Below, piece after piece: positions 21,589-41,417 of a stretch of DNA of 44,270 nt. The position numbers were made by a program, and so were the translations under genes. Source of the DNA: a virus; IMG/VR virus record IMGVR_UViG_3300032087_004072, positions 1-44,270 of that record; one strand, given 5' to 3'. The notes beneath the pieces are model-generated. The model searched no databases, was not told where the DNA came from, and saw only the letters and a program-made list of their open reading frames with translations. Within the stretch, counting starts at the first letter, position 1. Each line of letters starts with the position of its first letter.

Positions 21589-23343
21589 TTAGCTGGTGGC
21601 ACCAGCCTCACCGATGAGACCGCGACAGATGACGAGACCGTACATATCTGGACGGACCATCTTCTTGGCGTAGCGTGTCATCACGCCCTTACGGGGCACG
21701 AAGTCCTCGATACCGAAGATGGTAGGAGTGACTTGTAGCGGGACGTAAGGAGCATAGACGTAGCCGCTTTCTAGGAAGCTTCCACCGCGACGACCGACGA
21801 GGACGACGGAACGGGGGAAGTAAGGATCGACATAGACGTCCATCTTCTTAGAGAGCTGACCGACGCGAACAGCGCCGACTTCGCCACGATCACCATCGAC
21901 GGTGACGTTTCCACGGAATCCAGCGGTGAATTCTAGGATGTTGGCAACCTCAGGTCCGCAGACGACGAAGTTGGCACCACCACGTAGAGTCTTACGGTGG
22001 ATACGGGCGGAGACATCGTTGATGGTCTCGATTAGGGTCTCATACCACTCGGAAACGGTACCGGTGAAGTCAGGAGCGGCAGAAGCAGCGCCGATTTCAG
22101 CACCTGTCTCACGATTGACGAAGAGACCGGGGGAGCGGGACCAGTAGAGCGTACCAGCGGTTGCACCGTTGATAAGGTCTTCGAGGATCTCGCGGTCAAT
22201 TTCAAGAGCGATTTGCTCAGAAAGGATGCTTGTAAGCTCAACCTCAGCGTCTAGGTTGTGATAGGCGTTAAGGTCTTGACCAAGCTCAGGGGTCCACTTA
22301 GCCTTGAGCTTCTTGGTTTGAGCTGTAACAGCGACACTATCCACCTTGATGTTGATCTCAGGGATAGCGGTTTGATCTTCAAGAGCCCAGAGAGGGGCAC
22401 CGACAACGGAACCAACAGCGTTGGAAGCGTTGAAGTTATCAGCGATAGCGAAGGCAAGATCAAGTGTTCCGTCGAGTTCTTCGGAAAGAGCTTGGGCTTG
22501 AGCAGCGGTATCAGCTTCGAAGACGAGAGCCAATTGGAAAGTGGCAAGGCTTGGATCCGTGTTTTGTGTAGAACCAGAGTGGAACTGGGTCAAACGACGG
22601 ACAAGGCGACCGTTGGTGAGGGTGTTCTCAACAGAAAGAGCGATTAGGTTGGCAACATCAAGTTGATCCATATCGTCTGTTGTACTACCGGTAACACGGC
22701 AGACAGCAATACCAGCACCGAGAAGGTCAGGGTCGAAACGAACAAGCTTGTCTAGGTTAGCTTGGCTGTCACCGACAGGAGCGGCGCCAGGAGCTGTGGC
22801 ACCACCAGAAGCAGTACCGTAGATTAGGTTGTCCATTGGGACGTTGTCATAGGAACCGGTTGGGGAAGAGAAGCCATTGTTGAGAGAGTAAGGACCTCTT
22901 TCAGCGTTAGCACCGGTTAGATCAACACCACCGGTGATTTGGCTAGCAACACGACCGCCACCATAGACGGAAGATCCAATTCCTCCATTGTCTAGCTTGT
23001 CATCACCATAGGTGAAGTCTAGGAAGAAGATTAGACCAGAAGGTAGGCTCATTGGCTGAACGGACACGAGGTCGTTAGCAATGAGACCACCGAATACGCG
23101 ACGAACGATGGGGAATGCTACGGAAGCAAAACCCTCGACGTCACCGCCAGCCATGGAGCTGGCAGCTTCGCGGAGAAGCTCTTTGGCTTGATTTTCTAAT
23201 AGGCGAGCCATGCCATTCTTAGCGTTATCGTCAGTGATGCCTTCGAGAAGACCAGTCTTTTCCCACTTGGAGAGAAGAGCGGCACCTTCCTTGCGCATGT
23301 CACGGTTGACGATACCTTCTGTTAGTTTATTGAGTACAGACAT
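21589..23343 (-). CDS. 23: Major capsid protein gp23
   Basis: 584 residues (T4 gp23 is 521). The N-terminal helical region (NRDMRKEGAALLSKWEKTG, MARLLENQAKELL) resembles the part removed by the prohead protease in T4. The conserved block FASVAFPIVRRVFGGLIAND, then SVQPMSLPSGLIFFLDFTYG, is the T4-type capsid start of the HK97 fold. The C-terminal part with VDVYVDPYFPRS-like strands (KMDVYVDPYFPRSVVLVGRR) and RKGVMTRYAKKMVRPDMYG is also typical. It is expressed from a very strong ribosome binding site (AAAGGAGGTGAT, 23350-23361), follows gp22 by 20 bases and has a terminator after it. Confidence 0.95.
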   Translation of the reverse strand: MSVLNKLTEGIVNRDMRKEGAALLSKWEKTGLLEGITDDNAKNGMARLLENQAKELLREAASSMAGGDVEGFASVAFPIVRRVFGGLIANDLVSVQPMSLPSGLIFFLDFTYGDDKLDNGGIGSSVYGGGRVASQITGGVDLTGANAERGPYSLNNGFSSPTGSYDNVPMDNLIYGTASGGATAPGAAPVGDSQANLDKLVRFDPDLLGAGIAVCRVTGSTTDDMDQLDVANLIALSVENTLTNGRLVRRLTQFHSGSTQNTDPSLATFQLALVFEADTAAQAQALSEELDGTLDLAFAIADNFNASNAVGSVVGAPLWALEDQTAIPEINIKVDSVAVTAQTKKLKAKWTPELGQDLNAYHNLDAEVELTSILSEQIALEIDREILEDLINGATAGTLYWSRSPGLFVNRETGAEIGAASAAPDFTGTVSEWYETLIETINDVSARIHRKTLRGGANFVVCGPEVANILEFTAGFRGNVTVDGDRGEVGAVRVGQLSKKMDVYVDPYFPRSVVLVGRRGGSFLESGYVYAPYVPLQVTPTIFGIEDFVPRKGVMTRYAKKMVRPDMYGLVICRGLIGEAGATS

Positions 23344-23349
23344 AAAAGT

Positions 23350-23361
23350 ATCACCTCCTTT
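23350..23361 (-). promoter_or_regulatory. Extended Shine-Dalgarno site of the capsid gene
   Basis: AAAGGAGGTGAT pairs over 12 bases with a 16S rRNA 3' end of the type ATCACCTCCTTT, with 10 bases between GGAGG and the ATG. It is the strongest ribosome binding site in the window, matching the most abundant virion protein. Confidence 0.85.
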
Positions 23362-23363
23362 AA

Positions 23364-24494
23364 TTATTTGTTTTTAATACCTGCAAGAATTTGCAATCTG
23401 TCAATAGCTGTATCGGCTGTTTGCTCGGGCTGACGCCTGGGCAAAATAGTGGTTGAAGATCTCTTGATTGCTTCGCTTAGGGATTTTGGCATAGCCTTCT
23501 TGGAAGGAGTGCCCCCGGTGCTTTGAAGTGTCTCATAGATAACCTTCGCTTCATTTACCGAACCGGCTTTGGAGATAGCTTCGACAATGCTTTCTTTTTG
23601 TCGCTCATTCAAGGAGGGGCTACTCAAAATGCGATTCGTATATAATAGTTTTGCGTTTGAAGTGCTCATCTCGTCAAATGCGTTCTTCAATTTCGCAACC
23701 GTTTCTTTGAGAGCCTTGTTAGACTCCCCAAGACGTTCGTTTCTCTCCTTAAGGTCTTCAACAGCCTTTTGGAGTTCCTCCTGTTGGGCGCGGGCTTCTT
23801 CACCAGCGAGACGGGCGAGTTCCATCTCTTCGTAGTGCTTCATTTGGGATTCTGGTGTTCCAGCCCAACCGCTCTTTTGTGGAGAAATATCGACGACAAG
23901 TTCTTCAACGAGGGCGGCGATCGCCTCTTCGTCAAGGACAATGTCATCATCAGATTCTTTAACTAGGATATCATCCTCTTTATCTTCGGTGCCCATATCA
24001 GCTACGCGAAGATCGCCGGGACCCTCAGAGGCTTTGCCGTGTTCTTCCGGATCGTATTCTGGTACCTCTTCTTCTAGGGTTTCGTCGTGATCACCGCAGT
24101 GGGCTTCTTCAAGCATCTCTTCTTCTGCGGGAACAACTTCATCGGCAACATCGCTGTGAGCCTCGAACTCATCAGCTGGGGGTTCTAACTCCTTTGCCAT
24201 ATCTTGCAGGTCTTCAAGGCTGAATGTCATTTCAAGCTCAACGGACTCGGCGTCTTCGGGGCAAGGGCACATGTCTTCGCCCTCGGCATATGCTGGCGGC
24301 ACATCAACCTCTTCTGGCGCGTCCATTGGTGGGGGAGCCATTTCATCATCCATCATTTCTTGTTCTAGCAAAGATTCCACGGCGTTCTTGATCTCTGGTG
24401 CGTACTTTTCGATGATAGCAGCTTCTGCGTTTTTGAGGGCTGCTTCTCTTAGCTTAGCCGCATCTACAATTGCCTGCTCTAACATAGATGACAT
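23364..24494 (-). CDS. 22: Prohead scaffold / core protein gp22
   Basis: 376 residues (T4 gp22 is 269). It starts with a helix (MLEQAIVDAAKLREAALKNA). Residues 45-200 are extremely acidic with Pro and Met, the longest acidic stretch in the window. A coiled coil follows (about 225-285, ELQKAVEDLKERNERLGESN and on). The end RLQILAGIKNK matches the C-terminal signature of T4-type scaffolds. It forms the inner core around which gp23 assembles and is cleaved by gp21. The acidic insertion is longer than in T4. Upstream lies ACTATTTA (24541-24548). Confidence 0.85.
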   Translation of the reverse strand: MSSMLEQAIVDAAKLREAALKNAEAAIIEKYAPEIKNAVESLLEQEMMDDEMAPPPMDAPEEVDVPPAYAEGEDMCPCPEDAESVELEMTFSLEDLQDMAKELEPPADEFEAHSDVADEVVPAEEEMLEEAHCGDHDETLEEEVPEYDPEEHGKASEGPGDLRVADMGTEDKEDDILVKESDDDIVLDEEAIAALVEELVVDISPQKSGWAGTPESQMKHYEEMELARLAGEEARAQQEELQKAVEDLKERNERLGESNKALKETVAKLKNAFDEMSTSNAKLLYTNRILSSPSLNERQKESIVEAISKAGSVNEAKVIYETLQSTGGTPSKKAMPKSLSEAIKRSSTTILPRRQPEQTADTAIDRLQILAGIKNK

Positions 24495-24592: not shown

Positions 24593-24772
24593 CTAAGATC
24601 TTGCTAGCTCAATTGCGTCGGCGATTTGTTGCCAAAGGGCAAGCTTCTGCTCGTCAGTAATAATGCTATCCACATCTTCAAGAGAGATCTCTATCTCTTG
24701 TTGGGCTGCCTCAACCGTTGGAGAATCCATTGACGTGCCGACAAAAATAATACTAGTTTTCTTAATATCCAT
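24593..24772 (-). CDS. 59-residue protein, copy 2 of the duplicated small gene
   Basis: Below common ORF length cut-offs. It starts at the ATG 24772-24770, which overlaps the stop of the upstream fibre-like gene (TAATG). Its last 33 residues (EIEISLEDVDSIITDEQKLA, then LWQQIADAIELARS) match the other 59-residue protein at 25673-25852: ISLED-D-I-TD, then AL, QI and AI. It is a helical acidic protein with no signal. The pairing with a fibre-like gene in both copies suggests a small chaperone or attachment factor for that protein, which is inference. Confidence 0.75.
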   Translation of the reverse strand: MDIKKTSIIFVGTSMDSPTVEAAQQEIEISLEDVDSIITDEQKLALWQQIADAIELARS

Positions 24773-25671
24773 TATTTAACTGCTCCATATCTTAAAATTG
24801 CTAGTCTAGAAATAGAGCCGGAGAATTCAGCTCCGCTTGTACCGCCAGTGCTAACAGTAAAGGCAGTGAGAACTGATCCCGTGAATGGACTATTATCACT
24901 CGCGATAGCAACAGCCTGGGACGGTCTTAGGCGTGCGTGCCCAGTGGTTGTTAGATCATCGGGTGTCGGAAGGTTAGTGGAGTAGGAGCCGAGGGGGGCA
25001 CTGCCAGTCTTGAATCTATACCACCCTTCTCCTTGACGCACATCAGCTTCTAAGATTATATGTGTATGCCCATTAGTTACGGCTCTTGTATCAGTTGTAT
25101 AGTCAGCCGTTGTAAATGTCCGATTAATATATGCGAAAGGACGTGGTGTAAGCTTATCTGAATTTGATGCGAGGGGAGTAATACCATGAACCATAAAATC
25201 GTTTGCATCTGGAGTGCCGGCGAAAGAGCCGACTCCGGAATCAGCTGTATCAAGAAATCCATTAGATATGCCAAAGCTGATCACGGCTCCATCATTTATA
25301 GTTGTCCCACTTACTTCTACTATAGCTCTAAGTCTATCCTTGTTGTCGTATCTGCCTGGATCTGAGGCTGGCTTACCGGCGTTTATTGCGCCTGTTATAT
25401 TAAACATAACTCTTGCATATCTGACAGTTCCATCGTGGTTCGCTCTAAAAGATAATCCTTGTCCATTAACCACGGCGAGTTGCTGGACTGTGTTTGCCCC
25501 CGGTGTAAATGTGTGACAATCTACTGTTTCTCCGCTGGGTAGTGTCAAAGCAGTGGTGCCATTGCTAAGGCTAGTGTTAGCCATCTGTGTGAAATCAATA
25601 TCCAAGATGACCTCTGATGCACCCTGGTCTTCCTGCAATACCCAGCTACTTCCTGTTAATGCGAGTCCCAT
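24772..25671 (-). CDS. Lectin-like beta-sandwich fibre protein, copy 2
   Basis: 299 residues, paralogous to the gene at 25852-26688. Shared marks are the start (LTGSSWVLQEDQGASEVILD, then IDFTQMANTSLSNG), a central beta region with RAIVEVSGT, and the end SGSISRLAILRYGAVK. The all-beta, Thr/Ser/Gly-rich layout of this length fits a concanavalin-A-like or LamG-like sandwich, as used for receptor binding at phage fibre tips. GTGAGGG lies before the start, which comes just after the upstream 59-residue gene. Function is by analogy only. Confidence 0.65.
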   Translation of the reverse strand: MGLALTGSSWVLQEDQGASEVILDIDFTQMANTSLSNGTTALTLPSGETVDCHTFTPGANTVQQLAVVNGQGLSFRANHDGTVRYARVMFNITGAINAGKPASDPGRYDNKDRLRAIVEVSGTTINDGAVISFGISNGFLDTADSGVGSFAGTPDANDFMVHGITPLASNSDKLTPRPFAYINRTFTTADYTTDTRAVTNGHTHIILEADVRQGEGWYRFKTGSAPLGSYSTNLPTPDDLTTTGHARLRPSQAVAIASDNSPFTGSVLTAFTVSTGGTSGAEFSGSISRLAILRYGAVK

Positions 25672-25672
25672 C

Positions 25673-25852
25673 TTATGCCCTCACCTCATTTATGGCAGCA
25701 ATGATTTGATCAATCAGAGCAATACGCGCACTATCAGTGCTGATATTGTCAAAATCCTCCAAGGAGATTAGGATTTGCAAGAAGGCAACAAGCCAGGTCG
25801 GATCGCCAATGCCAGTTCCCACTGTTTGTATTCTTACGTCTTTTGTTTGCAT
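25673..25852 (-). CDS. 59-residue protein, copy 1 of the duplicated small gene
   Basis: It starts at the ATG 25852-25850, overlapping the stop of the upstream fibre-like gene (TAATG), and ends 2 bases before the next gene. The sequence runs MQTKDVRIQTVGTGIGDPTW, then LVAFLQILISLEDFDNISTD and SARIALIDQIIAAINEVRA. The second half is homologous to the protein at 24593-24772. It is small, helical and mildly hydrophobic, with no signal peptide or clear membrane segment. Confidence 0.75.
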   Translation of the reverse strand: MQTKDVRIQTVGTGIGDPTWLVAFLQILISLEDFDNISTDSARIALIDQIIAAINEVRA

Positions 25853-26688
25853 TAGTCTGCTCCATATCTAAATATGGTCAAGCGCTGCAAGGAGCCTGAG
25901 AATTCACCGGCTTGATTTTGATCGAAGCCTATTGAAATGCGGGAATCAGCACTACCAGTAAAAGGTGAGATATAATTACTTATTAATTGTGGCTGACTAG
26001 TATTCGACAAAACTCGCATACGTGCTTGTGGTGTGATATCACCAGGGTTGGGAAAGCTTGTTAATCCTCCTGGTGAAGATTCTCTATCGACAGCTGTATA
26101 TACGTTACCTTGCACCGCATCAAGCTCTATTCGGGCAGAACCGGTTACACCTCCTTGGGCTATTGTTTTTGCTCCGGTCTCTGTATTAATTTGTGTATTA
26201 GAGGCATAGCTATCAGTTGTAAAGATACTTAAATAATTGAATTTTTGGTTTGTCCAGGGACCACGGTAAAACATAGCAGCCTGCATAGCACCAGCGCTGA
26301 AAAGCACAGTCATATAATTTGGGTCAGAATTAGCACCAGCATCACTCCTTGTGCCACTAAACTCAGCCACTACTCGTATCCGATCTGCCACATTTACAGA
26401 TGATCCAGTGAAGGTAGTATAATAAAATACATTTAAATACCCAAATCCAGTAACGTTGTTGCTGTATGAGACGCCCTCTCCATTCACCACTTTGAAATAT
26501 GGATTGCCGCTTGTCACAACTTGCATACTAATGCCGCCGACACTATTGTATGCGTTGTTGGTGAGGTCTTGATTTGGCAGCTGTGTGAAGTCCAAGTCCA
26601 TAAGAACTTCTGCGCCTGTGTCTTTTCTTTGGACCAAGCTGCTGCCACTTAACCGCAGACTGGTCAATGAGCCAGTCAATATTGTCAT
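25852..26688 (-). CDS. Lectin-like beta-sandwich fibre protein, copy 1
   Basis: 278 residues, paralogous to 24772-25671: start LSGSSLVQRKDTGAEVLMDL then DFTQLPNQDLTN, central RIRVVAEFSGT, end SGSLQRLTIFRYGAD. All beta by eye, with many Ser, Thr, Asn and Gly residues. The two copies differ most in the middle (about 90-220), where the second half of a receptor-binding domain would vary. It starts directly at the end of the long fibre gene (1-base overlap) and is probably assembled with it. Confidence 0.65.
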   Translation of the reverse strand: MTILTGSLTSLRLSGSSLVQRKDTGAEVLMDLDFTQLPNQDLTNNAYNSVGGISMQVVTSGNPYFKVVNGEGVSYSNNVTGFGYLNVFYYTTFTGSSVNVADRIRVVAEFSGTRSDAGANSDPNYMTVLFSAGAMQAAMFYRGPWTNQKFNYLSIFTTDSYASNTQINTETGAKTIAQGGVTGSARIELDAVQGNVYTAVDRESSPGGLTSFPNPGDITPQARMRVLSNTSQPQLISNYISPFTGSADSRISIGFDQNQAGEFSGSLQRLTIFRYGAD

Positions 26689-29132
26689 TATCTAGTACCC
26701 GCGATATACCAGTCAGTTCCATCACAGAAAATTATGGCTGAGCCTGAGTTTGCTGCGATCACTAAGGTTGATTGTCCGTCGATCTTCTCTGTACCATTTG
26801 GATCAATTGTAATATTGTTTGTTCCAGCATTTCCGCCGACATCCTTGATAATCAACATTCTACCAGTGCCAGCAGTTGCACCTGCTTGTAGGTCGATCTC
26901 AACGGCGCCAGCAGTGGTATCGACGCCAATAATGTAATCACTATCCAAAACTGCATATGGGCTGTCGCCTGCTGCTTTGGAGCGATACTTAACAGAGCCA
27001 CCAGTCTGATTAACAACATCTGGGGTTGTACCGCCAATTGTCGTGCCATCGACGGTTCCACCCTCAATAGCAACGCTATTGATATTAAGTGTAGCAAAGT
27101 TACCGACAGAACTACTGACGCCAACAGAGGCAGTCATCGTGGTTAGGAAAGATGTTCCAGAAACGTGGAAAGTGCTTCCTGTCTCGAAAGATCCAAAGTG
27201 TCCAGCGCCATCGGTACCGCCAGTAACAAACATAATTATGTTTTCATAATCGCTCTTGGTATTAACAACACGATAAAGTTGGGATTCTCCTCGAACGTCT
27301 AGTACAGAACCAGGTCCAGAGTGTCCAATGGCGACCTTTCCTTGGTTAGCAACCAAGGTGTCTGTACCCTTTGAGGAGACGTGTAGTGCGCCTGCTGGGG
27401 AAGACTTGTTGATTGACAATTGTCCTTCGAAGAAATCTTCTCCACTTGGAGCTGTTCCTGTTAGGATTAGTATGGGTGTTGTGGTCGGACCGCCACCACC
27501 GCCAGAGTCAGCATCACCAACGTGATCGACCCTAACAACTGGCACCAACATAGATTGCGGGTATGCGCCAGATTGAGATAGGTGAAGCATCGCATCAGGC
27601 GTTGGGCGGTTTATACCAACTCTATTACTAGAAGCCTCGACATAAAGAGTATCAGAGCCAGTAAGGGAGCCGCTAGTTTGTAGCGTATCGCCAAATATAG
27701 CTGCGCCTACATTTTGGAATGTGCCAGAACCGGATAGATTGTTATCATTGGTAAGTGTAGAGCCATCATAGGTTAAGCTAGTGCTTCCCTGGATAGTGTT
27801 GGCATCTGACCAAAGAGCCAACTGTCCATTGCTGGGCGTACCGGAAACATCTACAAGATTAGTGTGAGTTGATCCTCCGACTGTAATTGAGCCAAGTTCG
27901 CCAGCGGAGCCGCTAATGGACCCAGAGGAGGCGATGTCTCCTGTGGAATTGATTGTCCCTACAATTTGTAATGTGCTTGATCCAGAGATAGCACCACCAA
28001 CAGTGAGCGTGTGTGTTGGGGAAGGAGCATTGATACCGACTCTACTAGTGCTTGATATAACTGATACTGTGTTATCTTGTACAGCTTGGTCGCTAGAATT
28101 GCCGATAAAGATGTAACCCTCGTCCAAGTTTGGCGTGGCGTTTGATCTGCCAGCGCCACCAACTTTAATCTGGTTGTCCCCACCCACGCCATTTCTAACT
28201 ACTTGTCCGATGTTTTGCAGCAAATTATTAGAGCCAGTTGGAGCAACGGCTGTTAAACTTCCAGAAACTCCACCAGAGCCGGTTTGGACGAATACTGGAT
28301 CTCCTTCCACAAACGTCTCATCTGGGAATAGAGTTGATAAGTTAAGGTTTTGCAAAGATCCAAAGGTGACAACTTGAACATTAGCTCCCTGCGCAGCATT
28401 GGCAGCAGCGAGTCCAAACGCGGGCATCTTGTTTGAATCGTCAGCAGCGGCGAGGGCAACTGTGGGTGTTTGTCCAGTAACACCTTTAATGTACACTACT
28501 TGACCCCTGGAGATCGAATCACCCTCATCATTAACTGCGTCAAAGCGGATAGCGCCCTCAATATCACCGATGACCTCTTCCACATAGAGCCTGTTCCATT
28601 CAAGTGCTGTGGAGCCGAGATCATATGTTAAAGTTGTATTAGGAACAATATGAGTTCCTGTAAGGTTTCCTCCAACCTCCACCACACCAGAGCCAGAAAT
28701 GTTTCCTGTTACAGATAGCGTAGTCCCATCCCAAACAAAGTCTGACGAGCCACCGAAAGACCCACCGTCGTTGAATTGGACCTGAGTGTTGGATCCGCCA
28801 GGAGAGCCGCCACCACCGACGTTCTGCAATTTTGAGCCATCACCATAAAAGAAGCTGGCTGAAATATTGCTTGAAGCGCTCAGGTCTCCATCAATTGTGA
28901 CAGCAATCTGCTCACCAGCAGAAGCGGAGATGTGAAGCTGCGATGTTGGCAGAACGGAGGGGAAGTCTAACCCAACGCCGACCTTGCTGGTACCAGTGGC
29001 ATATGCTAAAAATTTAGAACCAGATAGAGTGGTGGAATCCTTTACAATGGCTATTGTGCCAGTAACGTTGGCAGGACCTTCAATATTTTGCAGGACATCT
29101 AGATTTATATATGCCCATCCGAAATCTGGCAT
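26688..29132 (-). CDS. Tail-fibre-like repetitive virion protein
   Basis: 814 residues, Ser/Gly/Thr-rich with very few charged residues. Repeats of the form RVGINAPSPTHTLTV and RVGINRPTPDAMLHLS, and repeated SGSxTL-type beta turns, are typical of phage fibre shafts. The last 100 residues (YRSKAAGDSPYAVLDSDYII, then LIIKDVGGNAGTNNITIDPN, then FCDGTDWYIAGTR) form a conserved beta domain often seen at the end of phage fibre or spike proteins. It is followed by the duplicated lectin-like pair. It may be a long fibre, or a head-attached fibre given its place between head genes. Confidence 0.72.
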   Translation of the reverse strand: MPDFGWAYINLDVLQNIEGPANVTGTIAIVKDSTTLSGSKFLAYATGTSKVGVGLDFPSVLPTSQLHISASAGEQIAVTIDGDLSASSNISASFFYGDGSKLQNVGGGGSPGGSNTQVQFNDGGSFGGSSDFVWDGTTLSVTGNISGSGVVEVGGNLTGTHIVPNTTLTYDLGSTALEWNRLYVEEVIGDIEGAIRFDAVNDEGDSISRGQVVYIKGVTGQTPTVALAAADDSNKMPAFGLAAANAAQGANVQVVTFGSLQNLNLSTLFPDETFVEGDPVFVQTGSGGVSGSLTAVAPTGSNNLLQNIGQVVRNGVGGDNQIKVGGAGRSNATPNLDEGYIFIGNSSDQAVQDNTVSVISSTSRVGINAPSPTHTLTVGGAISGSSTLQIVGTINSTGDIASSGSISGSAGELGSITVGGSTHTNLVDVSGTPSNGQLALWSDANTIQGSTSLTYDGSTLTNDNNLSGSGTFQNVGAAIFGDTLQTSGSLTGSDTLYVEASSNRVGINRPTPDAMLHLSQSGAYPQSMLVPVVRVDHVGDADSGGGGGPTTTPILILTGTAPSGEDFFEGQLSINKSSPAGALHVSSKGTDTLVANQGKVAIGHSGPGSVLDVRGESQLYRVVNTKSDYENIIMFVTGGTDGAGHFGSFETGSTFHVSGTSFLTTMTASVGVSSSVGNFATLNINSVAIEGGTVDGTTIGGTTPDVVNQTGGSVKYRSKAAGDSPYAVLDSDYIIGVDTTAGAVEIDLQAGATAGTGRMLIIKDVGGNAGTNNITIDPNGTEKIDGQSTLVIAANSGSAIIFCDGTDWYIAGTR

Positions 29133-29148
29133 CAGATACTCCTAAAAA

Positions 29149-29625
29149 TTAAATTGTGTTAGTACCCAAATAAACGTCACAAGTACCGCTAGCACCGCCA
29201 ACCGTCGTTGCCTGCACAGCGAATCTCTCTATTCCCTCAATTGGTAGAATAAATCTAAGTGTTCCGCCGGCGGCAACTGTTGGTGTAGGAAGGGTAGCGA
29301 AAACCAAAGCATCGCCAGCGTTTTCTCTAACAATTTGAGATAGCTCTGTCCATACTCCACCTAGCGAAGAATTGTAGAACCAAAATTTTAGAACAGCACT
29401 TCCTGTGTTTCTATTGTTGTCGATGAGAACGTGAAGTGTTTTTTGTGAGTGAAAGTTAGGAAATCCATCCGTTGCCGTCATCGGGACACCAGAGGTGGCA
29501 GCGAATTGATAAGCGGCAGTCGTACCACCTGGGCTGGCGATATTAACTACATTTCTTGTTCGTGCGCCAGCAGAATACTGGAAAACGGTCATTGTGTTAC
29601 TTGCTGGATCTTGGGGACCTGCCAT
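29149..29625 (-). CDS. Beta-rich virion-type protein, unknown
   Basis: 158 residues, nearly all beta by eye (VLKFWFYNSSLGGVWTEL, then TLRFILPIEGIERFAVQA), rich in Thr, Ala and Gly and with few Lys. There is no signal sequence or enzyme motif. It precedes the fibre gene and follows bS21, with a strong ribosome binding site (ACAAGGAG). It may be a fibre-attached, collar or capsid decoration protein. No family recognised. Confidence 0.55.
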   Translation of the reverse strand: MAGPQDPASNTMTVFQYSAGARTRNVVNIASPGGTTAAYQFAATSGVPMTATDGFPNFHSQKTLHVLIDNNRNTGSAVLKFWFYNSSLGGVWTELSQIVRENAGDALVFATLPTPTVAAGGTLRFILPIEGIERFAVQATTVGGASGTCDVYLGTNTI

Positions 29626-29628
29626 TTT

Positions 29629-29886
29629 TTATCTCCTTGTTTTCTTTTTTCTATTATAATTAGGCTCTTCAAGCAAAATCGCTTTTTCCTTGCGCACGCG
29701 CTTCTTATTTTCTGCGATTCTTCTTCTTTTCTCGTTCCTTTTAATTTCCGATGGCTTTACATAGTATCGGCGGTCACGAAGAGTATCCATAAGCTTGATC
29801 TTCTTTGTTCTCTTAACAAACCTTCGGATCATTCTCTCTGCACTTTCGTGTTTGCCTTTTGGCGTTATCTTTACATTAATTGTCAT
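29629..29886 (-). CDS. rpsU: Ribosomal protein bS21, phage-encoded
   Basis: 85 residues (bacterial bS21 is about 60-71). The core matches bS21: ERMIRRFVKRTKKIKLMDTL (17-36; compare the ALRRFKR and AGVLAEVR segments of E. coli S21), then RDRRYYVKPSEIKRNEKRRR (37-56; compare RREFYEKPT), and a Lys/Arg-rich end. bS21 binds the small subunit near the anti-Shine-Dalgarno end of 16S rRNA and affects initiation. Phage bS21 copies are known in aquatic phages, where they are thought to enter host ribosomes. Here it is unusual in lying in the middle of the late virion genes, 3 bases before a beta-rich protein. Its own ribosome binding site is weak (AAGTGATAAG). Confidence 0.88.
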   Translation of the reverse strand: MTINVKITPKGKHESAERMIRRFVKRTKKIKLMDTLRDRRYYVKPSEIKRNEKRRRIAENKKRVRKEKAILLEEPNYNRKKKTRR

Positions 29887-29895
29887 TTTTTCTTA

Positions 29896-30330
29896 TCACT
29901 TCATATGTGCTGACCAGCGATTGCCAGCCAGATTTAAAATTCCTGTTATGTCGATCCCCGGATCGTTGGGATCCACATCAGACAATGGTCCTTGTGTTGG
30001 CGTCTCATTTGAGGTGGAGCCACCAGCGGAAAGGGGTTCAGTGCCCTCGAAGACGTTAATGCCGCCATAAGCGTCAGCATTGACGGCAGATAACAGCTTT
30101 TGCTTTCTCTCCTCTGCCGCGCGTCTCCTGCTCTCCAACAAAGCCTCACTTTGTTCGGAATCTTGAAAAACGGTATTCTGTGGCGTGCGCGCCTCCACGA
30201 TCGGAGCCGTGGATAGCCCTTGCGCAACCTCGGTTACTATGCTTGATAAAGTTCCCTCTTCAAAGATAACCTCTTTTATACACTCTTTAATCAAGGGCTT
30301 TAAAACCTTTTTAAGTTCTGTCTTGTTCAT
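29896..30330 (-). CDS. Prohead-core-region protein, unknown
   Basis: 144 residues. The first 40 (MNKTELKKVLKPLIKECIKE, then VIFEEGTLSSIVTEVAQGL) form an amphipathic helix pair of a type I have seen in marine phage proteins. The rest is Ser/Ala/Pro-rich with a helical charged patch (LLESRRRAAEERKQK). The start overlaps the stop of the prohead protease gene by one base (TAATG type). T4 has core proteins gp67 and gp68 next to gp21, so an assembly-core role is possible by position, but no sequence match is claimed. Confidence 0.6.
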   Translation of the reverse strand: MNKTELKKVLKPLIKECIKEVIFEEGTLSSIVTEVAQGLSTAPIVEARTPQNTVFQDSEQSEALLESRRRAAEERKQKLLSAVNADAYGGINVFEGTEPLSAGGSTSNETPTQGPLSDVDPNDPGIDITGILNLAGNRWSAHMK

Positions 30331-30926
30331 TAGTCTTCCAAAATTTCGTCGAATAAGCGGTTTAGTTTTTGATTCTTGTTCTCAGACAAGTTGTCCTTTT
30401 GTTCGCGCATCATAAAGGCGCCAGGGGTTGAAGGCTCAGAAACCATATCAAAGCAGATGAGTTGAAAATCATCATCAACAATCGTCTCACCGTTTCGCTG
30501 ATAGACGGATCCCAACCCTCGGGATGAAATACCAACTTGTACGCCACCATCGATAAGTGCGCGAAGCGTCATACCAGCTGGCGTGCTTAGAACCTTAATT
30601 TTTCCATAGACGTCGTCGCCGTCCATCCAAAGGGCAGTTACAATGTGTGATACTTTTTCAAGAGAAATTACAGAACTGTCCGGATGGTCTAGTTCGCCAG
30701 TGGCACGATTCTGTTCTATGAGGGTTTGATACCTTTTAACCTCTCGTTCTAGAATTTCCTTACTATACTTTCTACCATTGTGGTTAAGAGTTCCGGCTCT
30801 TTGACAAATGCCCGAAAGTATCATGCCGCCCTCAGCAACAAATCTCTTCTCAGCTTCGGTTAGAAGATCTTGGCAAATGCCGCCATCACATAGTGCGTAA
30901 TATTCTCTTAGTAATTTCTTGCTCAT
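30330..30926 (-). CDS. 21: Prohead maturation protease gp21
   Basis: 198 residues (T4 gp21 is 212). Conserved blocks are GRKYSKEILEREVKRY (51-66), GELDHPDSSVISLEKVSHIV (78-97; His81 is the candidate catalytic His), and VYGKIKVLSTPAGMTLRALI then VQVGISSRGLGSV (129-141; Ser134/135 catalytic region). This is the herpesvirus-like serine protease fold that cleaves gp22, gp23 and the core during head maturation. It follows the small ORF at 30932-31024 and precedes a core-like gene. AGG lies 9 bases before the ATG. Confidence 0.92.
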   Translation of the reverse strand: MSKKLLREYYALCDGGICQDLLTEAEKRFVAEGGMILSGICQRAGTLNHNGRKYSKEILEREVKRYQTLIEQNRATGELDHPDSSVISLEKVSHIVTALWMDGDDVYGKIKVLSTPAGMTLRALIDGGVQVGISSRGLGSVYQRNGETIVDDDFQLICFDMVSEPSTPGAFMMREQKDNLSENKNQKLNRLFDEILED

Positions 30927-31873: not shown

Positions 31874-32706
31874 TAACCTTCTAGTTCCTTTGCTAACTTC
31901 TGCATCTTCAAGACTTGTCTAACGAGGTCTTCACTAATCTCTGCTGCTTTGTAGCTTTCTAGAATTGTCAAAACTCTTTGAGCGCTCTTAGTCAGCATAC
32001 TGTCTTCCTTGATCTCCTCGTTTTCGAGAGATTCTTGGACAACATCTTTAAGACGCCCAATTTCCTCATTTAGGAAAATTTTAAGCTCAGCGCCGCCATC
32101 GTGGAAAGAGGCAATATATCTACTCAATAGATGCTCTTGTCTTTCAAGAAGCTTTCCTTGATATTGTTCATTAAACTTCTTGACAAACGTCTTATAAACA
32201 AGATTATCAATTGGAGCCATTTCCTTTTGAGCTGGCTCTTGGGGAGCAGAAAGAGTTTGGATTAAGTTGTTTTCAAGTAAAACCCGATGCTTAACAGAGA
32301 CATCGGGATTTAAAATTTGATAGATTGTAGCCAAACTCTTATAGTTTGGAACAAAATTGGAAAAGACTTCTCTGGAAAGTCCTTTATTGATCTTGTTAAT
32401 TAGGGCGGTCTGCTCCTTGAAGATTTGCTCTCTGTCTAGCATACTATGAGCGTGCTTAACCTCGTAAATAAGCTTCTCTGATGTGCGCTGTTCCAGAGAT
32501 GAGGTTTCATACAATGCCTTATATAAATCAAGTTCTTCGCGAAGAACTGTCCCCTTTGCGAAGTGCTCTCTCACCAAGGATATGATCACTTGCTTGCGCT
32601 CAATATCCTTGGATACGATGCTCTTAGTGAGTTCTCGTACTAGCGCTTCATATATAAAAGCTGTGTTGCGCTTCTTGTTGTGTCTAGTCTTTGTCAGCAT
32701 CTTCAT
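31873..32706 (-). CDS. Helical head-block protein, unknown
   Basis: 277 residues, almost entirely helical and Lys/Glu/Leu-rich, with a basic start (MKMLTKTRHNKKRNTAFIYE, then ALVRELTKSIV). It overlaps the end of the portal gene by 23 bases and the next start by one base. No enzyme motifs. The position after the portal gene and composition would fit a prohead core or portal-associated assembly protein; this is inference. The ATG at 32700 is an alternative start. Confidence 0.55.
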   Translation of the reverse strand: MKMLTKTRHNKKRNTAFIYEALVRELTKSIVSKDIERKQVIISLVREHFAKGTVLREELDLYKALYETSSLEQRTSEKLIYEVKHAHSMLDREQIFKEQTALINKINKGLSREVFSNFVPNYKSLATIYQILNPDVSVKHRVLLENNLIQTLSAPQEPAQKEMAPIDNLVYKTFVKKFNEQYQGKLLERQEHLLSRYIASFHDGGAELKIFLNEEIGRLKDVVQESLENEEIKEDSMLTKSAQRVLTILESYKAAEISEDLVRQVLKMQKLAKELEG

Positions 32707-34657
32707 TTCGCTCCAAGTTTTCTACTAATCTTCTTATTTCAAAGTGAGATTCAATGAGTTTTTTCTCTTCCATATCATAAGTAGAATCTATATTCTCATA
32801 AACACCATTTGCCAATCTATCCAGCTCTTGTTTGCCGCCGAAACGTGTTCTAGCTGTGTTTCTAAACATCTCTGGTGTGGCTTGCGATAGATATGAACGC
32901 TTACGCGCGCCTGCATCCCTACGATCTACTTTTTTAGGCTGGTACCATCCGTTGGATCGCTCTGTGGTTGTCTTTCCATCGGCACGAGTAATAGTCGTGT
33001 CTCGCTTTCCGGGGGGCTCACCGGGGGTTGCGAGTAATACTGAATCCTCTGCTGCCGTATCCTCTGGTGCCTCTGTATCTGCCGCTGGTTCTCCCCCAAT
33101 TTCTCCTCCAAGTGGTTCATCAGCAAGGTCTCCTGCAAGGTCAGCGCCCAAATCGTCGCCAATAGCATCGACACCAGCACCAACACCACCAAGAGTGTCA
33201 CTAGTAGCGGCTTCAAACTGCGCTTGCAGCATCGCATCATACTTCTTATCATATACTAGCTCCCTGCTGTTTCTTAGGAACTCCTCTTCTGAGAGATGGA
33301 ATAGGTGCTCGGCGATCCAGCGGCGACTGAAAAAGCCCTCTGTGGCAGAGCTGGCGACATCAAACTTTGTCTTCCAGTGTTCTAGTTCTTGCAATTCAGC
33401 AATCTTTGATGGGTTATTAAGAGAAAGAGAGAAGGAGATAATATCATCTCCACGGAATCCTAATGTATAGAGGTGTATGATTCCAATCTTTTCTAACTCT
33501 GATACAATTGAGCGTTGTAGTCTCTGAATTGTCCTGGCGAATCGGATATCCTTTTGTGCCAGGGTGGTCTTATCTTCGCTACCTGCCTCGCCCTGAGTGA
33601 GGTAGGATTGTGGAATCTTCAAGGCAGAGAATAACTTATCACGAAGGTATTTAACGTCATCGATATCACCGGTGAAAGACCCGCCGGGAAGACTCTCAAT
33701 TTTGGAACTCTGTCCTCCACGAACTGGGATGAAATAATCCTCTTCAACTGACATTGGGTTGTAGCGAAGATCAATACGACCTGTATCAGCATCGACTAGC
33801 TGATTTCTCTTCATCTGGGTCATAACCTTCTGCATATATTGCTCAACATCGTTTGAGTTGATATTACCAACATCAATATAGAAAACACGACGCTCGGGAG
33901 ATCTTACAATACGATATGCCATCATAGCATCTTCTAGTAGGGTAAGTTGCCTCCAAATGCGGCGGGCTGGCTCTAGCACAGAAGTTCCATAAGGAGCATA
34001 CTTGTCATTACCTAAGATTCGGAAGTGGGCAATTTGCCAATTCTCAAATGTCATACCAGCTGAGTTCCACTGATATTGGACATAATTAGGATTGGTCTTA
34101 TCTTCGCCTTCAAGGCGCTCAACTTCCTCAGATGGAAGCCCAATGGCAGACCGAACGCCCTGCTCTTCATCAATATCCAAGTAAAGAAAGAAGTCTCCAA
34201 ACTTGCACATTGAACGGGACCAGCCAAAGAGATTGAATTCAATATTTAGAACATTGTGATATAGCGTTTCTAGAACTGCCTTGATTTCGTCGTTATGACA
34301 ACGAATAGATAAGAGGGGCGTAAGATCGGAGGAAGTCGTCATCTCATCAGCATAAATATCAAGAGCTGATGCGATTTCTGGCATATACTCCATTTGTTGG
34401 AAGTCAGCATAGCGTTCGCTACGATTTTGATTAACGAATGCGTTAGCTTGCATCTTTTCATATGCGTGATACTCTGAACGCTTGAATTGCTGTCCGCTTG
34501 CTGACTTAAAGCGAGCTGCATACTTGTCCATATCGCGACGTCGAATTTGACGCCCCGTTTGGGTGCGATATCTTATAATAGGACCAGAAAAAATTCTAGT
34601 TAATTGTTTAAATAATCGGCTTTGCTGATTCCTTGGATTGCTCTTACGATCTGCCAT
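32684..34657 (-). CDS. 20: Portal protein gp20
   Basis: 657 residues (T4 gp20 is 524). Conserved T4-type portal blocks are FQQMEYMPEIASALDIYADE, then NIEFNLFGWSRSMCKFGDFF, then TLLEDAMMAYRIVRSPERRV, then DIDDVKYLRDKLFSALKIPQ followed by SYL. The C-terminal 160 residues are extra: an acidic, Gly/Asp/Ala-rich stretch (about 505-560) and then a basic patch and a helical end. The portal is the dodecamer at the head vertex through which terminase packages DNA. It follows the terminase gene by 5 bases. Confidence 0.93.
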   Translation of the reverse strand: MADRKSNPRNQQSRLFKQLTRIFSGPIIRYRTQTGRQIRRRDMDKYAARFKSASGQQFKRSEYHAYEKMQANAFVNQNRSERYADFQQMEYMPEIASALDIYADEMTTSSDLTPLLSIRCHNDEIKAVLETLYHNVLNIEFNLFGWSRSMCKFGDFFLYLDIDEEQGVRSAIGLPSEEVERLEGEDKTNPNYVQYQWNSAGMTFENWQIAHFRILGNDKYAPYGTSVLEPARRIWRQLTLLEDAMMAYRIVRSPERRVFYIDVGNINSNDVEQYMQKVMTQMKRNQLVDADTGRIDLRYNPMSVEEDYFIPVRGGQSSKIESLPGGSFTGDIDDVKYLRDKLFSALKIPQSYLTQGEAGSEDKTTLAQKDIRFARTIQRLQRSIVSELEKIGIIHLYTLGFRGDDIISFSLSLNNPSKIAELQELEHWKTKFDVASSATEGFFSRRWIAEHLFHLSEEEFLRNSRELVYDKKYDAMLQAQFEAATSDTLGGVGAGVDAIGDDLGADLAGDLADEPLGGEIGGEPAADTEAPEDTAAEDSVLLATPGEPPGKRDTTITRADGKTTTERSNGWYQPKKVDRRDAGARKRSYLSQATPEMFRNTARTRFGGKQELDRLANGVYENIDSTYDMEEKKLIESHFEIRRLVENLERNEDADKD

Positions 34658-34662
34658 TCTTG

Positions 34663-36258
34663 TTATCCCTTATACACCCAAAAAAATTCTTGTTGCTCTT
34701 TGATACTTCTCTCTCTGCTTGTGCCTTGGTTAATATCAAAGTTTTTAGTATATCCTCGCATACCAGGTATTGCTGTGCTCATCTTAGTGTTCGACACGAT
34801 CATAGAGTCTAGACAAGCTTTCTGATATTCTATGTCCCTCTTGTTCGTCTCCAACGCGGTATCTCGAACCCAGCAGGCGATAGCTAGCGCCATCGTCAAG
34901 TCATCATTATAACTTCTCATTGCCTCTGGGCGTCCGTTGTTCCAGATGAACGTCTTTAACTCATTAGCAATTCTTGAAGAATATAGAGTAATTAGTTTAT
35001 TTCTAATGAATTCTTCCAACTTTGCTACAATTAGTGGGCGCGTCTTTTGTGAGGTAGTGAAGCCGGGAACAGAATTGTTCATCATCTCCGCTTCTAGTTG
35101 GGTGACATATTCGTGAGTTGATTTAACTGAATAATAAAGATTTGGGTATTCCAACTCTCTTAGTTTATCTAGAACAGCAAAACCCACTGAATTGTTTTCT
35201 ACAACAAGCAAGCAATTCCCGTACTCTTGTCCGACAGAATACAACATACTGCCATATATGTCTGGGGCAGGCTTGCCCTGATACTCTGCCACTATTTCCA
35301 TAGTTTCTAACTTGATAATATGGAAGACCGAGTAATCCTTGCCATCGCCTCGGGCAACATCCGCTACCATAAGGTAAGAGAAATCTGAGTTGTATTCCTC
35401 CCAAATCCAATAGTTTCGGTCAAACCCAGTCTTATGATTTGGTTCGCGAACAGATTCAAATATTCTAGCTAGATCATCTGGATGGATTACAGTCTCACCA
35501 GAGGTGTTGAAGTTGCATTCCAACTCTTGCGCAATCTGTCGGCGGGACATATTGCGAGTTTCTTTCTCGAACCACTCGCGATCGCGGTCAGGATGAACGC
35601 TCCAAGGCAGATTAGTTGGAAAGAAGTCATTCAGCCCTTGCTCAGACTCTGTGTAGGTCTTGTGAAACCAGTTTCCAACACCGTTGGGGGTTGATAGTGC
35701 GATGCAGCGACCACCAGTTGATAGTGTAGGGTAGAGACCTGTCCATAGCTCGCTCAGCCCCTCAACGTGAGCAGCCTCATCAATCACCAGAAGTGACAAA
35801 GCCTCAGAACGACCAGCATCGCCGGAAGTTGAAGAGGCTTTGATCTGCGATCCGTTGGACAACTCAAACGATGAGCGGTTGTCAATGGTAATATCTGTGA
35901 TCTGTAAGAAGTCAGGAACGTTTTTTAGGATGTGCTTCACCTTCTTTACAAGGTTAGACGCCGTTCCAAACTTGGTGGCAATAACCAAGACGTTCTTATC
36001 ACGATGAAAAAGCATAAGCCAGACAATGTATCCCGCTGTAATAGTGGAGATACCCAACTGTCTGGCTTTTAGAATGATGTTGAAACGATAGTTATTAAAA
36101 TCGTTTAGAAGTTCTGATTGAAACTCGTATGTCTTAAATGGGATCAGCCCCTTTTGAGGGTGAGAAATACGAGCGTAGTTATTGATAAAATAAACGGGAT
36201 CCTTACCGCACTTTATAACTTCTTTATAAATTTCTTTCTTGGTAAGCTGATAGCCCAT
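34663..36258 (-). CDS. 17: Terminase large subunit gp17
   Basis: 531 residues (T4 gp17 is 610). The ATPase half shows Walker A KARQLGIST (64-72), Walker B LLVIDEA (156-162) and the coupling motif LSTPNG (188-193). The nuclease half shows Asp300 in MVADVARGDGKDYS, Glu354 in LLVVENNSVG and Asp452/453 in SYNDDLTMALAIA, the RNase H-like metal ligands. This motor cuts concatemers and packs DNA into the head in the T4 headful manner. The gene before it (36268-36777) is a possible small subunit by position only. Confidence 0.95.
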   Translation of the reverse strand: MGYQLTKKEIYKEVIKCGKDPVYFINNYARISHPQKGLIPFKTYEFQSELLNDFNNYRFNIILKARQLGISTITAGYIVWLMLFHRDKNVLVIATKFGTASNLVKKVKHILKNVPDFLQITDITIDNRSSFELSNGSQIKASSTSGDAGRSEALSLLVIDEAAHVEGLSELWTGLYPTLSTGGRCIALSTPNGVGNWFHKTYTESEQGLNDFFPTNLPWSVHPDRDREWFEKETRNMSRRQIAQELECNFNTSGETVIHPDDLARIFESVREPNHKTGFDRNYWIWEEYNSDFSYLMVADVARGDGKDYSVFHIIKLETMEIVAEYQGKPAPDIYGSMLYSVGQEYGNCLLVVENNSVGFAVLDKLRELEYPNLYYSVKSTHEYVTQLEAEMMNNSVPGFTTSQKTRPLIVAKLEEFIRNKLITLYSSRIANELKTFIWNNGRPEAMRSYNDDLTMALAIACWVRDTALETNKRDIEYQKACLDSMIVSNTKMSTAIPGMRGYTKNFDINQGTSRERSIKEQQEFFWVYKG

Positions 36259-38252: not shown

Positions 38253-41200
38253 TTAGTGATTTATGAAAGCGTATCCATCTCTTTTCTCGATCACTATCTG
38301 CGAATCTACGCAGTCCTTTAATGAGTCAAGGTGTGAGATCAATAAGATAGTCTTAAATTGAGCCTTGATCAAATCTAGAATTCGCACAAATCCTTCCATA
38401 TTCTCCTCGTCCAAAGCAGTCCCAGGCTCATCCAGGATGAAGATGTCACCCTTTGGCAGACTGGAAACAGAGAGAAGCGCTAGGCGAATTGCCATCGAGG
38501 CGATAGTCTTCTCGGCTCCGGAGCCCATTTCAAGTGGTCGTGGTTCAAAGCGAGGATGCTTAATGAAGATGTTAAGACGCTTGTCTGCGCTTTCAAGATA
38601 AACCTCAAAATTTACAATATTTGTAAGGACCTTGGAGATTTCATCATTGATCGCAGGGAGCTTTTTCTTAATGATATCATATGCAATGCCATTGCTGTGC
38701 ATACAGCGCATATAAAGATCGTAAGCAGAGTATTGATTTCTTAGGTCCTCCAACTCTTGCTTCTGGTCTCGCAGGCTTTCAACCTGCTGTTCCAGTGAGC
38801 CGTGCTTTACATATAGTTCTTTAAGTTCATTATCGCAATTTTCCAGCGTGCTATTGAAAGAAAAAATATTCTTTTTGTGGTCTCGCTTCTGCCTGTTGAG
38901 TTCTGAAAGCTGTTCAATGGCTTCCTTGTTCTCGTTATACGTATCAATTTCTTTCAGAAGTCGCTGAATATTATGCTCTGCTGTTAGCTTGGTAGTCTTA
39001 TTTCGCTCAATGCCGAGTTCGCACTTTGTTAGTGTGCGTTCAACTTCCCGCTTCTTATCAACAAGTTGCTCATATTGACTGTGCTTCTTATTGATTTCTG
39101 ACTCATTAAGGGCTGAAATATCAGCCTCAATCTTGCTACTCTCGTTATGTAGCGTAGCAAGCTTGGCAGCGTTCTCAGCAAACCTTTCCTTGGCTGTGTG
39201 GGCATCCTTAACAAACTTGTTTTCGTTACAATACTGACAGTCGGGATCATATTCGTGCGTCTCCAGCATCTTCATCTTCTTCTGGTTGTTTGCCTGCTCG
39301 CGATCAAGAAGCTTGATGATATTGTTTAGTTGGGACATTTCCTCCTGCTTGGTTGCAAGAAGTTCCTTCTTGATAAGAATATCATCGATATCAATATCTG
39401 ATAGGAAAGCGGCGATGTTCGTTAGCAGCTTTTCTTTCTCGTGGTGCTCTTGTTGAAGGGTCCGAAGATTCTCATCTGCCTTGTAAAGGTCTAGCTCGCT
39501 TGCGCTTAGTTCTTCCTGTACAGCATCATAGTCGATCATCTGCGTTGGAATAGAAGAAATCTGACTTTCTACTTCACTCAGAAGAGCCTCTACTGCTTTA
39601 AGTTCTTCTCTTGTGACCTCGCAAGTTGCCTTGTGATCATCGATTACTTCGCCGTTCTCTCGCAGCTCCTTAGAGGCAGCCGTGATGAGATTCACAAAAT
39701 CTTTGCCTTCCAGTAGTTTGAGGGCACCCTTGATACTAGAACTATCGTCCTTAGCCATCTTGAACTTCTTCTCGAAGATTTCTAGGTCAAGGAACTTGGC
39801 TAGGATTTCTTTGCGCTTGGTTGAGCCCTCACCAATGAACGACAGAGAGCCAAGCTGAGAAGCCATTGACGTTAGGAGGAAGTCCTCCATCGTGCCAAAG
39901 ACCTTTCGAATCTTCTTGTCAGTGTCGTTTCTGGTAAGTCCGTTTAGCTCCTCCTTCTCTCCGAGAAGGTTGGTCTTGAAGAAATCCACATCGGTCTTTG
40001 CTTCGGTCGTCTCCTGCCCTTTAAGGCGCTTGATATACTTTTCCGATGTACGGTGTATCTCGTAGGTCTCGTTGCCGATAGATGCCTTTACGACGCTTCT
40101 ACACCCCTCTTTGTTTTGGTTAATAATGTTAAGGTTCTTGCGCTCGTTCTTGGACGTGCTGTTGAACATAGTGTAGAGCAGTCCATCGATTGTGGAAGAC
40201 TTGCCTGAATAGTTCTTGCCGAAGATACCGACGATGCCGTTGGTCTTGCTGAAATCAATCTTATTGTCCTCGCCATAGTTGAACAGGTTATCCCATTCAA
40301 GGCTTTCTAGCTTCCAATCTACGTTGCGAGACACATCTTCGTTTTCCTGTGCTAGCGTGCTATACTTACGGTTTAGCTCAAAGACGCGGTCAAGCTCTTC
40401 TTCGCTAACCTCAAAATCTTTGAGATATTCCGTGATAAGCTTCTCTTGAACACTAGGGTCTCGGAGATTTTCCTTTTTGAGACCATCAGCCAAATTCTCC
40501 ACAGAGCCACGCTGACCAGCTGCACGATTAAGAAACGACACACTCTCAGGCTTGAAGCGATGCTTTACAATCTCAATTGCACGTCGTAGGCGGTCTGCTG
40601 GTAGGCTGTTGTTTGCTACAAGCCTTAGTCGGGCACCCTCCTGCACTTGGACGTTCTTTGGCAGGCGCCCCTTGGGTGTAAGCTCAATCGTGATAAACGG
40701 CTTGGGGTTGAGAAGCTTGTGGTGGGTGACAGTAAAGTCGTCTTTACTATTTATTTCCCAAATCAAGAATCCTTTATCATTGGTCTCGCCGTGGTTTTGC
40801 TGGACAATAGAGCCACAGTAGCGGACACGACCGTCCTCGTCAAGAATCTGGTTGGTTTTGTGAATGTCCCCAAGCATTGCGAAGTCGTGACCGGCAAAGA
40901 TTGAGACATCGTGGTCGCCATATTCCATAACCCAGCCGGCATCAGTGCTGACACCAGCCACACAACCGTGGTAGAACGCGATATTGATGCGGTCTTCGCT
41001 GCTGGGCTTGACCCAGTTGTCCTCATCGAATACTGAAAGGACGTTGAATGCCAAATCATCGGCAACAATAGTCTCACCAGCGTCCGCTAGAAGATGAATA
41101 TTGGGATTATCCAGCGCATTTACGATGGGTGTGATGGCATTTTGGCGACTTTTGTTGCGCAAATTGCCGTCGTGATTGCCCAAAATGATGTAAAGTGGGG

Positions 41201-41417
41201 CGATTTCTGCCAAATTTGTGAAGAATTCAGAGCATAATTGCACGAATTCGGGGCTAATTTGGGTCTTTGTGTGGGCAATATCGCCGCCAATATAGATATA
41301 ATCTACCTCGTTTTTACGCAAAATAGCGTATAACTGGTTGAAAACGTGTCTGTATTCATAGTGATACTTCAGATTTTTGATATGGACGTCCGCCAGGTGT
41401 GCAATCTTATAAGTCAT
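38253..41417 (-). CDS. 47/46: Fused Mre11/SbcD-Rad50/SbcC nuclease-ATPase (gp47-gp46 fusion)
   Basis: 1054 residues in one frame. Residues 1-340 are an Mre11/SbcD phosphoesterase: HLADVH (7-12), GGD (44-46), GNHD (80-83), YHG with His150, and GHD (176-178) with GDIH (183-186). Residues 370-1054 are Rad50/SbcC: Walker A GKNYSGKSS (400-408), a long coiled coil with a zinc hook CQYC (Cys727 and Cys730), signature MGSGAEKT (about 960-970) and Walker B IFILDEP (about 990-1000) with LISHLDSL after it. T4 encodes these as separate gp47 (339) and gp46 (560). The complex resects DNA ends to supply ssDNA for UvsX. It lies 15 bases after the primase gene region and before the lysis-like trio. Confidence 0.95.
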   Translation of the reverse strand: MTYKIAHLADVHIKNLKYHYEYRHVFNQLYAILRKNEVDYIYIGGDIAHTKTQISPEFVQLCSEFFTNLAEIAPLYIILGNHDGNLRNKSRQNAITPIVNALDNPNIHLLADAGETIVADDLAFNVLSVFDEDNWVKPSSEDRINIAFYHGCVAGVSTDAGWVMEYGDHDVSIFAGHDFAMLGDIHKTNQILDEDGRVRYCGSIVQQNHGETNDKGFLIWEINSKDDFTVTHHKLLNPKPFITIELTPKGRLPKNVQVQEGARLRLVANNSLPADRLRRAIEIVKHRFKPESVSFLNRAAGQRGSVENLADGLKKENLRDPSVQEKLITEYLKDFEVSEEELDRVFELNRKYSTLAQENEDVSRNVDWKLESLEWDNLFNYGEDNKIDFSKTNGIVGIFGKNYSGKSSTIDGLLYTMFNSTSKNERKNLNIINQNKEGCRSVVKASIGNETYEIHRTSEKYIKRLKGQETTEAKTDVDFFKTNLLGEKEELNGLTRNDTDKKIRKVFGTMEDFLLTSMASQLGSLSFIGEGSTKRKEILAKFLDLEIFEKKFKMAKDDSSSIKGALKLLEGKDFVNLITAASKELRENGEVIDDHKATCEVTREELKAVEALLSEVESQISSIPTQMIDYDAVQEELSASELDLYKADENLRTLQQEHHEKEKLLTNIAAFLSDIDIDDILIKKELLATKQEEMSQLNNIIKLLDREQANNQKKMKMLETHEYDPDCQYCNENKFVKDAHTAKERFAENAAKLATLHNESSKIEADISALNESEINKKHSQYEQLVDKKREVERTLTKCELGIERNKTTKLTAEHNIQRLLKEIDTYNENKEAIEQLSELNRQKRDHKKNIFSFNSTLENCDNELKELYVKHGSLEQQVESLRDQKQELEDLRNQYSAYDLYMRCMHSNGIAYDIIKKKLPAINDEISKVLTNIVNFEVYLESADKRLNIFIKHPRFEPRPLEMGSGAEKTIASMAIRLALLSVSSLPKGDIFILDEPGTALDEENMEGFVRILDLIKAQFKTILLISHLDSLKDCVDSQIVIEKRDGYAFINH

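Follow-up and report, generated by a model that had tools for sequence, protein, structure and literature searches.

An apparently inherited bS21 gene within the head-gene block of a marine T4-like phage lineage

The bS21 gene and its surroundings

The window analysed here is the whole 44,270-base stretch of an IMG/VR record and derives from a T4-like myovirus, with genes for the large terminase (TerL), a Gp20-type portal, an S77 prohead protease, a Gp23-type capsid protein, sheath and tube. All these virion genes and bS21 lie on the minus strand, and the 5' to 3' order of the block around bS21 is TerL, portal, three smaller genes, protease, a 144-aa protein and bS21, followed by a 158-aa protein, a baseplate/fibre-like protein, two duplicated gene pairs, scaffold and capsid (Table 1). 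The earlier note on this DNA had placed a bS21 homologue among virion genes at this position without giving its strand, and this is borne out by a profile match and by the flanking virion-assembly genes. The open reading frame occupies exactly the positions given in Table 1, encodes an 85-residue product (MTINVKITPKGKHESAERMIRRFVKRTKKIKLMDTLRDRRYYVKPSEIKRNEKRRRIAENKKRVRKEKAILLEEPNYNRKKKTRR) and starts 9 nt past the stop codon of the 144-aa gene. No terminator-like sites were found between bS21 and its neighbours, sigma-70-like sites near it occur at chance level, and the single T4-type late promoter sequence (TATAAATA) in the window equals the chance expectation. The window gave no match to Rfam, contains no tRNA and has no DNA-level neighbours among phage records.

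Table 1. Positions of the features described in the window
Feature	Position	Strand	Remarks
bS21 (rpsU-like) gene, 85 aa	29629..29886	minus	profile match to PDB bS21; sub-threshold Pfam/NCBIfam matches; dN/dS 0.03-0.11
Large terminase (TerL)	34663..36258	minus	
T4-type portal (Gp20)	32684..34657	minus	PF07230, E 1.4e-77
S77-type prohead protease (T4 gp21-like)	30330..30926	minus	PF03420, E 1.1e-30
144-aa protein	29896..30330	minus	directly upstream of bS21; syntenic partner in most of the lineage
158-aa protein	29149..29625	minus	directly downstream of bS21; in some relatives; no family match
814-aa baseplate/fibre-like protein	26688..29132	minus	phrog_20556 baseplate, E 1.3e-9
Tandem gene-pair duplication	24593..26688	minus	copies 24593-24772 with 24772-25671, and 25673-25852 with 25852-26688
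Probable head scaffold protein	23364..24494	minus	weak PHROG scaffold match (E 0.0046) and location ahead of capsid
Extended Shine-Dalgarno site of the capsid gene, AAAGGAGGTGAT	23350..23361	minus	-18.9 kcal/mol
Major capsid protein (Gp23-like)	21589..23343	minus	PF07068, E 6.6e-73
1054-aa protein	38253..41417		calcineurin-like phosphoesterase and SMC/RecN-type ATPase domains
395-aa protein	3731..4918		weak partial DNA polymerase A match

Three other features of the window deserve mention. The tandem duplication comprises a 59-aa protein and a protein of about 280-300 aa, each present twice, and is also kept in the relatives L003, L006 and L010. The 1054-aa protein resembles a fusion of T4 gp47 and gp46, and its single-ORF-length alignments to relatives suggest that this fusion is conserved in the lineage. 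The match of the 395-aa protein covers mainly the C-terminal end of the polymerase profile, and this protein is possibly a split or fragmentary polymerase.

Family identity of the protein

Taken alone, the window protein stays under the curated cut-offs, which are score thresholds and correspond to no structural feature, of both Pfam Ribosomal_S21 (PF01165; E 1.1e-4, 22.3 bits, cut-off 27) and TIGR00030 (6.7e-5, 22.7 bits, cut-off 28.95). A profile built from 12 relatives matches bS21 chains of the PDB (E 6.3e-8 and 7.8e-7), and all PDB chains that it reaches with E < 0.1 are bS21. PF01165 is the sole family matched by all 12 relatives in the profile, and its cut-off is passed by more typical relatives occupying the same gene slot (38-48 bits). 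A best match to a non-ribosomal basic protein had been proposed beforehand as evidence against the assignment; the profile matches bS21 only. Residues retained from cellular bS21, in F. johnsoniae numbering and with columns compared against 100 cellular sequences, include R-R-F, K25, R35, the aromatic residue at 38 and K40-P41-S42. An AF2 model of the protein (pLDDT 84.5) superimposes on E. coli bS21 with a TM of 0.75 and a Z of 6.3, values that do not reach significance for a small helical protein, and Foldseek searches with this model gave no significant E-values, so that the fold match counts as consistency only. At the profile level, the window protein is a bS21 homologue, with no other family matched.

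Conservation and inheritance in the marine lineage

Among the ribosomal proteins reported from viruses bS21 is the commonest, and its gene is usually treated as an auxiliary one taken from the host. In the window and its close relatives, for pairs with unsaturated synonymous change, the dN/dS of bS21 is 0.03-0.11. Such strong purifying selection identifies it as a functional phage gene. A scan with bS21 as query returned 20 loci in strict synteny. To avoid the selection bias of such a query, a second scan was run with a TerL alignment, and membership of the lineage was defined as a TerL at least 66% identical. All 18 TerL-found lineage loci spanning both protease and scaffold, some of them near-identical records of a single phage (L044, L046, L049 and L050), carry bS21 between these two genes on the same strand, as do the bS21-found lineage loci spanning protease to scaffold (5/5). 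Exactly one copy is present in each of the eight long TerL-found records (27-190 kb), in three of which it sits further downstream, past fibre genes. No bS21 match was obtained in two short records (7-11 kb), which may end before the gene. In the window, and in every lineage locus that shows both, bS21 and the head genes share a strand. TerL and bS21 distances are also correlated across 33 phages (Mantel r 0.67, 0/2000 permutations). From these sequence comparisons, bS21 looks like a vertically inherited core gene rather than a sporadic capture.

Arginine-rich N-terminal extensions of about 30-45 residues are present in the bS21 of three relatives (L048:13517-13804, L090:16278-16652 and L094:9834-10214), for which start codons were picked mechanically.

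Residue changes and Shine-Dalgarno usage

Three positions of helix 1 depart from cellular bS21 in a manner fixed across the lineage. Position 20 is K in 85-100% of the cellular sets, whereas in the 35 lineage sequences it is mostly I or L and K is never among the reported common residues; position 24 is E or D in most cellular bS21 and always K in the lineage; and position 30, which is K, R or S in most cellular proteins, is D or E in 97% of the lineage sequences. Divergent sites of the phage bS21 proteins described by Chen et al. in 2022 likewise fall in the first-helix region (PMC9723584). Position 54 is not aromatic: the window protein has A there, and most lineage members have R, A or K.

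Regarding translation signals, a Shine-Dalgarno (SD) duplex below -6 kcal/mol precedes 60% of the window genes vs about 20% of random sites (p about 1e-7). The 12-base site of the capsid gene, which pairs with an E. coli-type 16S tail over 11 bases, had been cited in the earlier note as one of some very strong SD sites; this site is real, but it is the only one of such strength in the window, so that the phrase comes down mostly to a single site. An SD precedes the capsid gene in every lineage member examined, with a strength that varies widely (-7.3 to -19.8 kcal/mol). Outside the lineage, the capsid gene of HTVC008M has one (-9.1) and that of immuto has none (0.9). Since capsid SDs also occur in phages outside the lineage, the capsid SD need have no relation to bS21. 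The SD of the window bS21 gene itself is moderate (-6.3), whereas Bacteroidota rpsU genes typically have an extended one. Within the lineage, the relative L091 is exceptional in that its bS21 gene (L091:9067-9303) has a strong SD (-12.8 kcal/mol).

The host of the phage

Phylogeny of the protein had been suggested in the earlier note as a way to identify the likely host. A tree was built from the 35 lineage bS21 and 100 cellular bS21 (Bacteroidota, Pseudomonadota, Bdellovibrionota and the WOR-3 phylum) over 68 columns; in it the lineage proteins form one group (SH-aLRT 93) apart from the cellular ones. The deep forks are not resolved with 68 columns, which makes the tree unusable for host assignment, and no host was identified in this way. 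MAG bins were equally rejected as a source, the labels of the terminase matches being in conflict (WOR-3, Flavobacteriaceae, Halobacteriovorax, Acidiferrobacteraceae and Flavobacteriales).

A lineage TerL lies inside a bacterial MAG chromosome in one case (L105; CP070664.1, WOR-3). Phage synteny breaks off there inside the portal gene and the locus contains 400 N, for which reason this contig looks chimeric.

A Bacteroidia host of the type described by Chen et al. is unlikely, because the phage uses SD sites and its bS21 has no aromatic residue at position 54. For the marine lineage, the prediction is a host that uses SD sites. That the phage bS21 would itself unlock SD use in a Bacteroidia host is a less economical explanation.

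Proposed role and alternative explanations

The reading that we favour, with a probability of roughly 0.6 for the whole of it, is that of a true phage bS21, a vertically inherited core gene of the head block in a large marine T4-like lineage, which would be made late, enter the host 30S subunit and tune initiation. Its position in the genome suggests late expression, most likely along with protease, scaffold and capsid. The protein would then exchange into host 30S subunits, displacing the loosely bound host bS21, and would tune initiation near the anti-SD end of the 16S rRNA during mass production of virion proteins. Precedents exist for both of the earlier steps, and by analogy with them the window phage may follow the same course: the bS21 of HTVC008M enters E. 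coli 70S ribosomes (PMC6375957), and bS21 is co-expressed late with structural genes in the phages of Chen et al. (PMC9723584). The HTVC008M protein strongly impaired translation by E. coli ribosomes in vitro, which fell to about 5% of the wild-type level (PMC6375957), a result that speaks against taking a benefit to the phage for granted. The takeover of late translation put forward in the earlier note, with initiation biased toward phage mRNAs, is likewise a hypothesis for the window phage.

The helix-1 departures from cellular bS21 could mean a changed role. As a tentative and rather unlikely extension, read from these substitutions, the lineage bS21 might have been re-tuned so that late ribosomes favour mRNAs with extended SDs of the capsid type, or might have gained a second role linked to assembly.

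Another possibility is that the bS21 fold was recruited as a head-assembly protein, such as a small basic component of the prohead core or one binding nucleic acid, which would explain why the gene is locked between protease and scaffold. The strict placement of the gene within the head module throughout the lineage, the fixed changes at positions almost uniform in cells and the arginine-rich extensions of L048, L090 and L094 are in agreement with such an exaptation. However, residues common to cellular bS21 are kept, the HTVC008M gene is located outside the head block, and the same head module exists without bS21 in immuto, which implies that assembly needs no bS21 in that relative; we consider exaptation improbable.

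We assign a similarly low probability to host shut-off, where phage bS21 in ribosomes would mainly depress host translation or bS21-dependent regulation instead of favouring phage mRNAs. The loss of translation caused by the HTVC008M protein (PMC6375957) and the charge changes in helix 1 would fit this proposal, although the former was obtained with a heterologous E. coli ribosome and the gene is placed with mass-produced virion genes, whose translation must go on. It is very unlikely that the phage copy simply tops up new or bS21-poor subunits with mRNA preference unchanged: bS21 can indeed be exchanged and is one of the last proteins added to the 30S subunit (PMC9976891), but the fixed lineage-specific substitutions suggest more than a plain host copy. 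Finally, the idea that the product is another basic helical protein resembling bS21 by chance, to which its sub-threshold single-sequence scores, strongly basic composition and non-significant Foldseek E-values might point, is effectively refuted by the profile-level matches, the synteny with over-cut-off relatives in the same slot and the RRF...KPS signature.

Comparison with known phage and cellular bS21

The occurrence of bS21 in phages and its location in the late structural block have already been published (PMC6375957, PMC9723584), and the late-cluster location, which the earlier note had regarded as the less expected part, was already contained in the work of Chen et al. and in the record of Microcystis phage Mel-JY01. 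What is added here is a large marine lineage in which bS21 runs in the same direction as the head genes, occurs in all records with adequate coverage and has fixed helix-1 changes. No description of this lineage was found in the literature searched, the coverage of which was incomplete.

In the freshwater Bacteroidetes phages of Chen et al. (clades a-e), as in the window, bS21 lies among the TerL, portal, prohead protease and capsid genes, but on the strand opposite to them (PMC9723584), whereas it is co-directional in the window and its lineage. Their proteins have an aromatic position 54, associated with the Bacteroidetes type of anti-SD occlusion, whereas this residue is A in the window and the genome uses SD sites. 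The same distinction applies to cellular bS21 from Flavobacterium johnsoniae (7JIL), which is among the two best PDB matches of the phage profile and has the KPS motif in common with it: Tyr54 of this protein helps to hide the anti-SD (PMC9976891) and is absent from the phage lineage.

Pelagibacter phage HTVC008M, for whose protein ribosome entry has been seen, is like the window phage a T4-like marine myovirus encoding bS21. Its gene lies outside the head block, between the cobS and hsp20 genes, and its product groups with alphaproteobacterial-type bS21 and not with the window lineage; in its relatives, the pelagimyophages, S21 has been described as belonging to no particular gene cluster (PMC7029224). 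The head module is also found in Flavobacterium phage immuto, where it lacks bS21, and no bS21 was detected between protease and scaffold in the contig of a Halobacteriovorax MAG. In the 484-kb phage LR756508, bS21 stands just before scaffold and capsid. A tblastn search of phage records with the window bS21 gave no match and missed even Mel-JY01, because the window protein is too diverged, so that absence from such a search means little. The slot between protease and scaffold is common to at least three groups that are well separated from one another, either through shared ancestry or because the gene was inserted repeatedly, between which the tree cannot decide.

In the large marine lineage, bS21 behaves like a core member of the virion-assembly block that is passed on by inheritance, and the positions at which it shows fixed departures from the cellular protein are the ones to probe for a specialised late-phase ribosome. 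The same gene order and strand are seen in Mel-JY01 (PP395634), whose gene is annotated RpsU and whose block runs TerL, portal, protease, a 154-aa protein, bS21, scaffold region and capsid. Its TerL is 43% identical to that of the window, and its bS21 is nearer to the cellular ones (45 bits to PF01165) and stands apart from the marine lineage in a tree of limited resolution. As this isolate with the same arrangement exists, the question is testable in culture.
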